Shown in pieces: positions 882-21,570 of a DNA stretch of 64,000 nt. The stretch comes from Arthrobacter cheniae. GTDB taxonomy: Bacteria > Actinomycetota > Actinomycetes > Actinomycetales > Micrococcaceae. The notes beneath the pieces were generated by a model, which was given only the letters and a program-made list of their open reading frames with translations, was not told the DNA's origin and did not search any database. The stretch lies in the NCBI RefSeq assembly GCF_003602275.1, contig NZ_QZVT01000003.1, positions 372,001-436,000 of the forward strand, read 5' to 3'. The translations under genes and the position numbers were made by a program. Numbering within the stretch: the stretch's first letter is position 1; each line of letters begins with the position of its first letter.

Positions 882-954
882 TGCCCCAGCAGGGACTCGA
901 ACCCTGACTGAACAGATTTTAAGTCTGGTGCCTCTGCCATTGGGCTACTGGGGC
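882..954 (-). tRNA. tRNA with UAA anticodon (nominal tRNA-Leu), class I shape
   Basis: A complete 73-nt cloverleaf reads on the minus strand. The acceptor stem is GCCCCAG/CTGGGGC, the D stem GCC/GGC, the anticodon stem CCAGA/TCTGT with loop CTTAAAA (anticodon TAA, plus-strand 919-921), and the T arm CAGGG TTCGAGT CCCTG. The discriminator is A and the next bases are CCC, so CCA is not encoded. The variable region is only five nucleotides (TCAGT). Canonical bacterial tRNA-Leu is class II with a long variable arm, so charging with leucine is not certain. The first base pair of the anticodon stem (C27-T43) is mismatched. Confidence 0.85.
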
Positions 955-1064
955 CGGCCGCGGCATCAGCCTACCCCGGACAGGAAGGCGACTCGACGAC
1001 GTGAACGTGGAGGGATGCCGGAGGATCTCCCGGGAAACACGAATCCTCGAACCGGCAGACGCAG

Positions 1065-1124: not shown

Positions 1125-2564
1125 TCAGGCGGAAGCCTTCGCCGCTGAAGCCTGTCCCGCAGGTGTCGGCGGCTGGCTCTGCAGCGCCGTGTCCTTCCTC
1201 GCCGGAGGGGTGGCCGCCTCGCGGAACTGGCGCCTCGGCTCCTGGAGATCGGAGATCGGCGCGAGGTCGCGACCGAACAGGAAGCTCATGCTCCAGTTGA
1301 TGATGACGCGCGCCTTCCGCTCGTACATGGGCATCGCGAAGCCGTGGTATCCACGATGCGCGAGCCAGGCCGGGAAGCCCTTCATGCCGAAGCCCATGAT
1401 GTTCGCGACACCCTTGAACTGGCCGAAGCCGGCGACGGCGCCCAGGTTGGTATGGCGGTATTCCTTGACCTCACCGATGCCGTGGTTGGAGGCGAGGATA
1501 TTGGCTGCGAGCAGCTTCGCCTGGCGCACGGCGTGCTGGGCGTTGGGCACGCAGAAGCCGCCCACTCCCCCACCGGTCAGGTCGGGAACTGCAGCCACGT
1601 CACCAGCGGTCCAGGCATGGTCGATGGGTCCGTCATCGCCCGTGATGCGCAGTTCGGACGAGGCGCGGACGCGGCCGCGCTCATCGACCGGGAAATCCGT
1701 GGAACGGACCACGGGGTTGGCCTGGACGCCGGCGGTCCAGATGAGGGTGTCAGTGGTGAACTCGTCGGCCGGCGTCTTGTCCGGCATGTTGATGAGCTTG
1801 AGCGTGCCGTCGACGGCGCTGGCCAGCGAGGTGTTGAGCAGGACCTCGATCTGGCGTGACCGGAGGTGTCCGACGACCCACTCGGCCTGCTTGGCCGTGA
1901 CCTCCGGCATGATGCGTCCCATGGCCTCGACGAGGACGAAGCGCAGGTCGGAGCGGCTGAGACGGCCGTTCGCCTTGACGGCTTCGCGGGCAGCGTCCTC
2001 CATCTCGGTGATGGTCTCGATACCTGCGAAACCGCCGCCGACGACGACGAAGGTCAGGGCGCGCTCGCGCTCGGGACCCTCGGGCATGACGGACGCGGTC
2101 TCGATGCGCTCGAACATCCGGTTGCGTAGCGCCACCGCTTCCTCGATGGTCTTCAGCCCGATGCCCTGGTCCTTGAGACCCTCGATCGGGAACGTGCGCG
2201 TGATGGATCCTGCTGCGACGACGACATCGGTGTACGCGAGCTCGAAGGGCTCACCCTCGCCTGTCGGAGCGATGGTTGCGGTGCGGCCGGCGTGGTCGAT
2301 CGACGTGACCTTGCCCGAAATCAGCTCGGTCTTCCGCAGGTGCTTGCGGTGGGACACGATCGCGTGGCGCGCCTCGATGCTTCCGGCGGCGACCTCGGGG
2401 AGGAAGGGCTGGTACGTCATGTAGGGCAGGGGATCGACCAGGGTGACGATGCCACCGTGGTCCTTGATCTGCTTCTGAAGCCTGTGCGCGACGTAGAGGC
2501 CGACGTAACCGCCGCCGACGACGAGGACGCGCGGGCGGTCGGAGAAATGTGGATTCGATGCCAT
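1125..2564 (-). CDS. ndh: Type II NADH dehydrogenase (NDH-2)
   Basis: This membrane-associated flavoprotein transfers electrons from NADH to menaquinone without pumping protons. The 479 residues fit the family. A first dinucleotide-binding motif (VVGGGYVGLYVA) for FAD is at residues 15-26, and a second (VVVGGGFAGIET) for NADH is near residue 175. The FAD-contacting TAGDVAAVPD motif lies in the C-terminal half, followed by the C-terminal membrane-contact region. The start ATG at 2564 is 35 bp from the divergent end of the subtilase region and gives the family's usual short N-terminus. It stands alone, between the tRNA and the subtilase gene, and is not part of a respiratory operon here. Confidence 0.93.
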   Translation of the reverse strand: MASNPHFSDRPRVLVVGGGYVGLYVAHRLQKQIKDHGGIVTLVDPLPYMTYQPFLPEVAAGSIEARHAIVSHRKHLRKTELISGKVTSIDHAGRTATIAPTGEGEPFELAYTDVVVAAGSITRTFPIEGLKDQGIGLKTIEEAVALRNRMFERIETASVMPEGPERERALTFVVVGGGFAGIETITEMEDAAREAVKANGRLSRSDLRFVLVEAMGRIMPEVTAKQAEWVVGHLRSRQIEVLLNTSLASAVDGTLKLINMPDKTPADEFTTDTLIWTAGVQANPVVRSTDFPVDERGRVRASSELRITGDDGPIDHAWTAGDVAAVPDLTGGGVGGFCVPNAQHAVRQAKLLAANILASNHGIGEVKEYRHTNLGAVAGFGQFKGVANIMGFGMKGFPAWLAHRGYHGFAMPMYERKARVIINWSMSFLFGRDLAPISDLQEPRRQFREAATPPARKDTALQSQPPTPAGQASAAKASA

Positions 2565-2598: not shown

Positions 2599-4077
2599 CT
2601 AACTCGGGGGCGCTCCGGGAACACCTCGTGACGCCTGCTCGCCCGCCGCGTCCGGAACGCGTTCGATGGTGCCGGTATCGTCCTCCGGAACCACTGCCGG
2701 ACGTCCCCGGACCCGCGCAACGTGCAGGGCTCCACCTGCGATGACGGCGAGCATCAGGCCGCCGAATCCGAGCACCACCAGAGCCGGGACGTCATGCACC
2801 GACCGGAGCGGATCCTCGGCCTCGGGTGCCGGCGGCGGAGGAAGGACCTCCACCGGTACCTCGCTCGGAGGGGCGGGCTGCGGCGCCGGGACCTGCCCGC
2901 CACGCCGGTAGACCTGGATCCACTCCTCCATGCTGCCGAGGCGGTTCTCCTGCGGCACCGTGATGTCCTTACCGACGGCGGCAGCCACGTCCAGGACGCC
3001 GAAGCCGTACAGGGTGTCGAATCCCGGCTCGCCGGCGTCCTTCGCCGTGTCGACGATGCGGTTGACGACCTCCGCCGCCGACAGGTCCGGATACCGGGAC
3101 CTGATGAGGGCGGCGACGCCGGACACGAGGGGAGCAGCGCCCGAGGTCCCGGACCAGTCGGCGTAGAAGCCGCCGGGAAGTCCTCCGACGAGGTTCTCCG
3201 ACGGCGCGGCGACAGCGATGCTGATGCCCTCGGAGGACGCTTCGGTACTCGCGCGGCCCGCCCTGTCGAGTCCGGCGACGGCGAGGACGCCGGGAATGGT
3301 GGCGGGCGCTCCGACCTGCGTCAGGCCACCGGCACGGTTGCCCGCGGCGGCGATGATGACGACGTCGTTCTGCTCGGCATACAGGAAGGCCTCGTCCCAG
3401 CTCTCGGGCCATGCGGTGCTGGTGCTGCCGAGCGACATGTTGATGACGTCGGCTCCGTTGTCCACGGCCCAGCGGACGGCGTTCGGCACCTGCTGATCGA
3501 CCGGGATACCGGCGGGATTCGGGCCACTGCTCTGTCCCTCGATCCATACGGAGACCGCGAGGAGATCGGCCTTCGGCGCCACGCCGACGATCCCGTCCGG
3601 ACCGTCGCCGTACTGGCTGAACGGTTCCGGCTTCGGCGTCGGCTTTGCCGGCGGCGTCGCCTTGCCGGTGCCGGCACGGCTGGGTTCGGACGTGGATCCG
3701 GGGCCGGCTCCGGGGGCCTCGGGCTCGTCGCTGTGCCCTCGCCCGGCGAGCAGGGTGCTGACCAGGGTCCCGTGGCCCGGCACCTCGCCGATACCACGCT
3801 GCCCGTCGGGATCGCCCGCGCCCGAGGCATCGGTGCCCCCGACGACGGCGCCCGCGAGGTCGGGATGCGTGCCGTCGACCCCACTGTCGATCACGGCCAC
3901 GGTGACGCCCTCGCCCTGCGTGCTCTTCCATGCTTCGGCAATGCCGTAATCCTCGAGCCAGTACTCCTTGGCCCGCATGTCGTCGGCGGAGGCCGGAACT
4001 GCGCCAGGAAACAGCACGGCCGGGACCACGACGCCGGCCGCTGCCGCCCGGATGGCCAGCCGCGTTCGGGTGCGCAT
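2599..4077 (-). CDS. Mycosin-like S8 subtilisin-family serine protease, membrane-anchored
   Basis: This is a secreted subtilase of 492 residues. A signal peptide (residues 1-31, ending ASA) precedes a catalytic domain with the complete triad: Asp64 in VIDSGVDGTHPDL, His102 in GHGT, and the serine in SGTSGAAPLVSG near residue 315. A Pro/Gly-rich insertion at residues 115-155 splits the domain. A Pro-rich stretch and one transmembrane helix (near residues 430-455) with a basic cytoplasmic tail end the protein, so the protease faces outward. This layout resembles mycosins of type VII secretion systems, but no other type VII gene is nearby. The stop is 5 bp upstream of nothing coding on this strand; the gene follows the exopolyphosphatase gene by 4 bp, so the two are probably co-transcribed. 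Confidence 0.85.
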   Translation of the reverse strand: MRTRTRLAIRAAAAGVVVPAVLFPGAVPASADDMRAKEYWLEDYGIAEAWKSTQGEGVTVAVIDSGVDGTHPDLAGAVVGGTDASGAGDPDGQRGIGEVPGHGTLVSTLLAGRGHSDEPEAPGAGPGSTSEPSRAGTGKATPPAKPTPKPEPFSQYGDGPDGIVGVAPKADLLAVSVWIEGQSSGPNPAGIPVDQQVPNAVRWAVDNGADVINMSLGSTSTAWPESWDEAFLYAEQNDVVIIAAAGNRAGGLTQVGAPATIPGVLAVAGLDRAGRASTEASSEGISIAVAAPSENLVGGLPGGFYADWSGTSGAAPLVSGVAALIRSRYPDLSAAEVVNRIVDTAKDAGEPGFDTLYGFGVLDVAAAVGKDITVPQENRLGSMEEWIQVYRRGGQVPAPQPAPPSEVPVEVLPPPPAPEAEDPLRSVHDVPALVVLGFGGLMLAVIAGGALHVARVRGRPAVVPEDDTGTIERVPDAAGEQASRGVPGAPPS

Positions 4078-21456: not shown

Positions 21457-21485
21457 TTGAACCAGGAGTGTCACCGCCCTAGATT
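21457..21485 (+). promoter_or_regulatory. Candidate sigma-70-type promoter of sdhCDAB
   Basis: The -35 TTGAAC (21457-21462) and -10 TAGATT (21480-21485) are separated by exactly 17 bp. Transcription would start near 21491, leaving an 80-nt leader before sdhC. Confidence 0.6.
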
Positions 21486-21570
21486 ATTCTTATCTGAAGA
21501 GTGCTGTCGCACCGGCGTAATCCCTGCGTATAACGCGCTAACGCCCAGGCGATGCAGGGAGGTCATTTCA

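Follow-up and report, generated by a model that had tools for sequence, protein, structure and literature searches.

The analysed window, a stretch of 64,000 nucleotides from a contig of Arthrobacter cheniae, contains a tRNA gene that in all likelihood encodes a bona fide leucine tRNA without the long variable arm, charged by the single LeuRS of the genome and reading UUA as leucine. A long variable arm counts as one of the features by which bacterial tRNA-Leu is defined. This class I form with the UAA anticodon is standard in the order and is not an isolated oddity, so there is nothing unusual about the gene in this group, and the point worth revisiting is that bacterial leucine tRNA has two architectures. 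We consider it probable that much of Actinomycetota uses class I molecules as UUR isoacceptors (anticodons UAA and CAA), that the absence of the arm goes along with a different, diagnostic D-stem (C13, mostly GCC/GGC), that the two classes have repeatedly replaced each other one for one, and that the same compact form occurs in phages and tRNA arrays.

Structure and surroundings of the gene

ARAGORN identified one tRNA gene in the window, tRNA-Leu(taa) on the minus strand, and Rfam RF00005 gave a hit at the same place whose 60 bits exceed the gathering score of 29 (Table 1). The first-pass annotation had described a class I tRNA of 73 nt with a TAA anticodon and a five-nucleotide variable loop at 882-954, and its coordinates proved exact in ARAGORN, RF00005 and the reading of the layout. 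Class II is defined by a variable arm of at least 10 nt; with 5 nt, this tRNA is class I by definition. The cloverleaf is complete, with an acceptor stem of 7 bp, a D-stem of 3 bp and a T-stem of 5 bp, and U48 (907) would pair with A15 (940). The single anticodon-stem mismatch reported earlier is C27-U43, and the CCC at the 3' end, where CCA could be encoded, was also confirmed. The missing CCA is ordinary here, because only three of the 45 distinct tRNA genes of the genome (Arg-CCG, Arg-ACG, and Ser-GCU) encode it; it is absent as well from 19 of 24 copies of the gene in the genus. The 3' CCA must be added post-transcriptionally, as in most tRNAs of the genome.

Table 1. Features of the tRNA gene and neighbouring genes in the window.
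Feature	Position	Strand	Basis or remark
Class I tRNA-Leu(UAA), 73 nt	882..954	-	ARAGORN, Rfam RF00005, family covariation; G1 = 954, A73 discriminator = 882
Anticodon UAA (positions 34-36)	919..921	-	ARAGORN and layout reading
Variable loop UCAGU, 5 nt (44-48)	907..911	-	Layout reading
D-arm, 3-bp stem GCC/GGC, leucine-type loop CAAUGGCAGA (A14, A15, G18, G19, A20a)	930..945	-	
U43 of the unpaired C27-U43	912 (partner C27 = 928)	-	
TAGGCT (TAnnCT hexamer), candidate -10 element	968..973	-	19 nt upstream of the UAA tRNA
Gene like branched-chain-amino-acid ABC substrate-binding proteins	1-657, runs off the window	-	Below curated cut-off
Gene like pyridine-nucleotide-disulfide oxidoreductases	1125-2564	-	Below curated cut-off

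The minimum-energy fold of the unmodified single strand is not a cloverleaf; the structure was assessed by covariation instead. Among 43 diverse class I homologues, 99.0% of the pair cells are standard and 16 of the 20 pairs show two-sided change, a level that was reached in none of 500 shuffled controls. The 27-43 pair is non-standard in five of the 43 homologues, and several members of the genus have G27-U43.

A hexamer of the TAnnCT type lies within 60 nt upstream of the gene in all 24 genus copies examined, at a distance of 18-23 nt in 21 of them and of 30 or 56 nt in the other three. A sigma-70 consensus scan and a terminator scan found nothing. The gene is located between the substrate-binding-like and the oxidoreductase-like genes, whose names are kept broad because the matches fall below curated cut-offs. 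Farther along the same strand (2599-4077), a serine protease resembling the type VII secretion mycosin can be noted, with a score slightly under the family cut-off.

Leucine tRNAs of the genome

The genome contains 47 tRNA matches, 45 of them distinct, and the anticodons of all were read by ARAGORN. Only one of the 47 has the UAA anticodon. The remaining leucine tRNAs (CAA, CAG, UAG, and GAG) belong to class II, with variable regions of 13-15 nt versus 5 nt in the UAA tRNA, and the Ser (16-19 nt) and Tyr (13 nt) tRNAs are class II as usual. A second, class II UAA tRNA was not found in the genome by ARAGORN on all 47 matches, by pattern or by the class II leucine model. One full-length bacterial-type LeuRS gene (952.7 bits) is the sole match above the cut-off in the genome.

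The first-pass annotation rightly stressed that this tRNA departs from the textbook leucine tRNA and that its identity and use are the questions to ask. It had also considered that the tRNA might turn out to be the sole UUA decoder, normally charged with leucine and of a form standard throughout the order. This is largely the picture obtained: the UAA tRNA is the only one of its anticodon, class I UAA tRNAs occur in at least 161 of the 198 genomes of the order (144 by pattern and 17 more by model), and the identity elements, the class II leucine model and the aligned codons described below point to leucine.

Leucine identity elements

In E. coli, leucine identity is determined by A73, the A15-U48 pair, G18G19, A20a and contacts between the D- and T-loops; the long arm is dispensable, and tRNA-Leu variants without it stay active (available text of PMC9976931). 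The UAA tRNA of A. cheniae carries A73, A15-U48, G18G19, and A20a. A set of 144 distinct class I UAA/CAA tRNAs was compiled, 124 from pattern-fetched loci and 20 by similarity. A73 is present in all 144, U48 and A14A15 in 143 each, G18G19 with A20a in 142, all of these together in 141, and a 3-bp D-stem in 143; the conservation of the D-arm is partly due to construction of the set, because the pattern fixed part of this arm, with A73 and U48 left free. None of 121 non-leucine tRNAs combines the D-motif and the 3-bp D-stem with A73 and U48. Six of them match in everything except the 3-bp stem, and four of these six are tRNA-Lys, including Lys(CUU) of this genome.

A covariance model built from class II leucine tRNAs only, applied to this genome at E <= 1e-10, found the four class II leucine tRNAs, then the UAA tRNA (61.4 bits), and nothing else. 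The same model in six other genomes returned class II leucine tRNAs followed by the class I tRNA or tRNAs, and no other tRNA. Five hits were obtained in 32 of 34 genus genomes, four in G014 and three in G026, with part of the class I tRNAs among the matches listed. The margin is modest, as 61.4 bits for the UAA tRNA compare with 58.0 bits for a Thr tRNA of G099, a genome that has no class I leucine tRNA.

The gene is presumably expressed, and LeuRS would charge its product via A73, A15-U48, G18G19, A20a and the elbow formed by the D-loop and T-loop, none of which lies in the arm. The charged tRNA would then read UUA, and possibly UUG, as leucine.

Distribution in the genus, order, and phylum

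In a DNA search, each of the 35 genus genomes, A. cheniae included, gave a single match, and 16 of the 22 genomes from elsewhere in the order also gave matches. The UAA anticodon was confirmed in all 24 genus copies checked. Sixteen places read outside the genus correspond to ten class I UAA tRNAs, three class I CAA tRNAs, and three tRNA-Lys(CUU).

The class I family pattern, which spans the region from the D-arm to the anticodon, was found in 173 of 198 genomes of the order, with the CAA anticodon in 63 of these. A covariance model of 43 class I members was run on 39 genomes, comprising all 25 pattern-negative ones and 14 of the 23 in which class I CAA was the only type detected; among the matches listed, class I leucine tRNAs scored at least 75 bits and all others at most 69.3 bits. 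By this model, with anticodons read, 21 of the 25 pattern-negative genomes possess a class I UAA or CAA tRNA. Pattern and model together give a class I tRNA with one of these anticodons in 194 of the 198 genomes. The exceptions are G099, which is complete, G195 (88% complete), G200 (77%), and G226 (69%).

Of 246 genomes across the phylum, 51 contain the strict pattern: all six from the order, six of the 15 from elsewhere in the class, and 39 of the 225 from other classes. This is a lower bound because the strict pattern misses members. The class I form thus occurs more widely in the phylum, though perhaps not generally. A scan of public genomes gave at least 119 matching stretches. Among the 80 stretches listed are those of Mycobacterium, Nocardia, Gordonia, Rhodococcus, Corynebacterium, Bifidobacterium, Micromonospora, Nocardioides, Streptosporangium, and Acidimicrobiales or Acidimicrobiaceae, as well as a few assembled genomes labelled Planctomycetota, Rokuibacteriota, Deltaproteobacteria, Chloroflexaceae, and Acidobacteria. 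Misbinned contigs may be among the matches with non-actinobacterial labels.

One-for-one replacement of class I and class II

The 198 genomes of the order were compared by pattern for class I UAA, class I CAA, class II UAA, and class II CAA tRNAs. By pattern, the same anticodon occurs in both classes in none of the 198, with three class II CAA hits dropped. These hits, in the class I CAA genomes G066, G166, and G073, were the only apparent overlaps; they were dropped by eye before tabulation, and ARAGORN afterwards found no tRNA there. Class I UAA is combined with class II CAA in 81 genomes and with class I CAA in 34, and class I CAA is combined with class II UAA in six. A single type was detected in 68 genomes (29 class I UAA, 23 class I CAA, and 16 class II CAA), and none in nine. 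Since patterns miss divergent genes, the class II leucine model was applied to eight genomes as well. Seven of them contain UAA, CAA, UAG, CAG, and GAG once each, and class I is found only for UAA and/or CAA. The replacement is thus one for one, by pattern in the 198 genomes and by model in the eight, and the class I UAA/CAA family would take the place of the class II form with the same anticodon across the order.

In the complete genome G099 (family f17), two covariance models found no UAA tRNA of either class; its leucine tRNAs are CAA, CAG, UAG, and GAG only, and the UUA decoder may have been lost. In families f3, f7, f8, and f13, class I CAA is present in some genomes and class II CAA in others, which suggests that the classes have switched repeatedly.

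The D-stem of class I members is GCC/GGC in 127 of 144 cases and UCC/GGA in 13, with C13 in 143. In 12 of 13 class II leucine tRNAs, it is GCG/CGC or GUG/CAC, and all 13 have G13; some further class II leucine tRNAs deviate from this pattern. The arm was therefore not simply cut off, as the D-stem differs along with it. The variable loop of class I members is mostly NCAGU.

Two minor observations concern unusual gene sets. The G104 genome, from the same family as A. cheniae, has by pattern two tRNA-Leu(CAA) genes (L406 and L407) beside class I UAA. In G195, a pair of neighbouring class I tRNA-Leu genes (L373, G195:C313:6526-6674) carries the anticodons GAG and CAG, which do not belong to the UUR set.

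Meaning of the UUA and UUG codons

The UUG codon was examined in four genomes of another family that have class I CAA and class I UAA tRNAs; class II counterparts were absent by model in G041 and by exact patterns, which miss divergent genes, in the other three. Genes were aligned between species with TTA and TTG masked. Of the 332 residues aligned with UUG, the codon of class I CAA, 296 are leucine. In the same masked run, leucine was found at 332 of 379 residues for CUU and at 49 of 62 for CUA, and Phe at 36 of 43 for UUU.

For UUA, six genomes of the Arthrobacter genus were compared after masking TTA and leaving out the first 30 codons; with 53 informative positions of 84 codons, this is a weak test. 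Leucine prevails among the residues facing UUA (111 of 165), followed by Phe (13) and Val (11), and it leads at 30 of the 53 positions, with Phe leading at nine. In an unmasked run, the leucine share was 134 of 204 for UUA, 632 of 832 for CUA, and 2284 of 2894 for UUG. UUA thus fits leucine less cleanly than other leucine codons do. The noise may come from the rarity of the codon and from over-extended ORF starts.

The frequency of UUA is 0.12-0.69 per thousand codons. The codon had earlier been called rare and often regulatory: its rarity is borne out by 10 occurrences in 53,864 codons of 200 kb here, and the codon counts give no sign of a regulatory role. Several of the 10 codons fall in over-extended ORF starts. 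TTA triplets at an ORF start near 21,457 of the window were likewise rejected as UUA codons, as the ORF looks over-extended. The triplets at about 21,457-21,500 (plus strand) are kept in five species upstream of an apparent gene for a succinate dehydrogenase subunit, perhaps sdhC, and are probably promoter or leader sequence rather than codons.

Alternative explanations

It is very improbable that a different synthetase charges the UAA tRNA with another amino acid, making UUA reassigned or ambiguous in the genus. The class I shape is indeed unlike the textbook LeuRS substrate, tRNA-Lys(CUU) is found among the weaker BLAST hits in other families, and the genome's own Lys(CUU) shares A73 and A15-U48; however, the D-stem of the latter has 4 bp, versus the 3-bp leucine type of the UAA tRNA. 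The incomplete share of leucine at UUA also fits such a reading, but leucine is far ahead of Phe, the next residue, and UUG, read by the same class I family, faces leucine at the large majority of aligned residues. In the available main text of a large screen of genetic codes (PMC8629427), the words Actinobacteria and UUA do not occur, and rare codons may have escaped that screen. Nor does the molecule resemble an allo-tRNA, in which the acceptor and T stems are of the 8/4 or 9/3 type (available text of PMC7609411); those of the UAA tRNA are 7/5.

The C27-U43 mismatch, the lack of an encoded CCA and the rare cognate codon could be taken as marks of a decayed gene, or of one that acts outside translation as a regulatory RNA or an amino acid donor to another pathway. 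We regard this as highly unlikely: the match in every genus genome and the strong family covariation point to a constraint on the cloverleaf, on which grounds a tRNA pseudogene was rejected, CCA absence is the rule in the genome, the mismatch is limited to a few members, and without this gene the genome would have no tRNA with a UAA anticodon. Decoding of UUA by a functional leucine tRNA is the preferred reading.

Comparison with known leucine tRNAs

The Streptomyces bldA tRNA-Leu(UAA) is a class II molecule. Both it and the Arthrobacter tRNA read UUA, a rare codon in a high-GC actinobacterium; however, the latter is class I, and the codon counts show no sign of developmental UUA control. Nearly all of the 144 class I tRNAs share with bacterial class II tRNA-Leu (UAA, CAA, CAG, GAG, and UAG) the residues A73, U48, A14A15, G18G19, and A20a, the 3-bp D-stem, and a D-loop of 10 or 11 nt. 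The first pair of class I members is G1-C72 in 116 of 144 and G1-U72 in 24. The differences lie in the variable loop, which has 5-6 nt in class I versus 13-17 nt in class II, and in the D-stem, mostly GCC/GGC with C13 in the former, with G13 in the latter.

Animal mitochondrial tRNA-Leu(UUR), whose identity depends on A73 and A14 (available text of PMC9976931), is also a leucine tRNA without the long arm, but the Arthrobacter tRNA is bacterial, has a complete cloverleaf and is accompanied by one ordinary bacterial-type LeuRS. A tRNA-Leu(TAG) with a short variable loop has been described in a tRNA gene cluster of the Mycobacterium mucogenicum clade (available text of PMC6582537). It likewise combines a short loop and a leucine anticodon in an actinobacterium; however, it is an extra gene of the cluster, with the normal isoacceptor elsewhere, whereas the Arthrobacter gene is the sole UAA gene and is kept across the genus.

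According to the portion of a 2023 review that was available, tRNA-Leu has a long arm everywhere except in animal mitochondria, and class I tRNA-Leu in these bacteria runs contrary to this statement. The available texts of PMC7609411, PMC8450103, PMC8629427, PMC11541572, and PMC4524478 do not mention class I UUR tRNA-Leu in actinobacteria, and searches of openly licensed literature found no report of it in the titles and abstract beginnings listed. If a natural and widespread armless tRNA-Leu is confirmed, LeuRS needs no arm in living cells, as E. coli variants suggested. This would also be a natural experiment on how the D-stem and the elbow compensate for the missing arm. UUA-dependent control, tRNA-targeting toxins, and isotype software that assumes a class II tRNA-Leu may need re-examination in actinobacteria.

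Phages, tRNA arrays, and the origin of the class I form

Sixty phage records match the UAA tRNA query; among the 30 listed are phages of E. coli, Pseudomonas, cyanobacteria, Myxococcus, Rhodococcus, and Streptomyces. All six records read in detail contain class I tRNA-Leu, with seven genes in total. Class I tRNA-Leu(UAA) is encoded by Pseudomonas phage 16Q, cyanophage P-RSM6, Rhodococcus phage Trina, and Myxococcus phage Mx1, class I tRNA-Leu(CAA) by Streptomyces phage Comrade, and class I tRNA-Leu with UAG and CAA anticodons by the tRNA cluster of Escherichia phage mistaenkt (L334:1494-1570, 2073-2150). The D-arm signature and the short loop are the same in all seven genes; a difference is that the UAG anticodon also occurs in phages. 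There were three matches on plasmids, and none in E. coli genomes at the search sensitivity used.

These findings allow for the possibility that the class I form came from phages, mobile tRNA arrays or another tRNA, and not by loss of the arm from a local class II tRNA; we consider this rather unlikely, and it is compatible with leucine charging. Class I leucine genes do occur in tRNA-dense or paired loci (L158 and G195), and in a crude tree class I leucine tRNAs stand beside Cys, Ser, and Tyr tRNAs. In this FastTree phylogeny of 126 tRNAs, the best leucine grouping comprises 87 of 88 leucine tRNAs of both classes with four Ser, one Tyr, one Cys, and one Gln tRNA, and within it 50 of the 52 class I leucine tRNAs do not nest among the class II ones but cluster with Ser, Tyr, and Cys; however, tRNA trees of 70 columns are too noisy to decide the origin. 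The regular single match per genome throughout the genus also speaks against a phage source, and phages may equally have acquired the gene from their hosts.

Locus L158, on a contig labelled Chloroflexaceae, is an array of more than 20 tRNA genes in which class I Leu CAA and UAA lie beside class II Leu GAG and CAG. In an assembled genome labelled Acidobacteria (L181:6053-6208), neighbouring class I tRNA-Leu genes have CAA and CAG anticodons.
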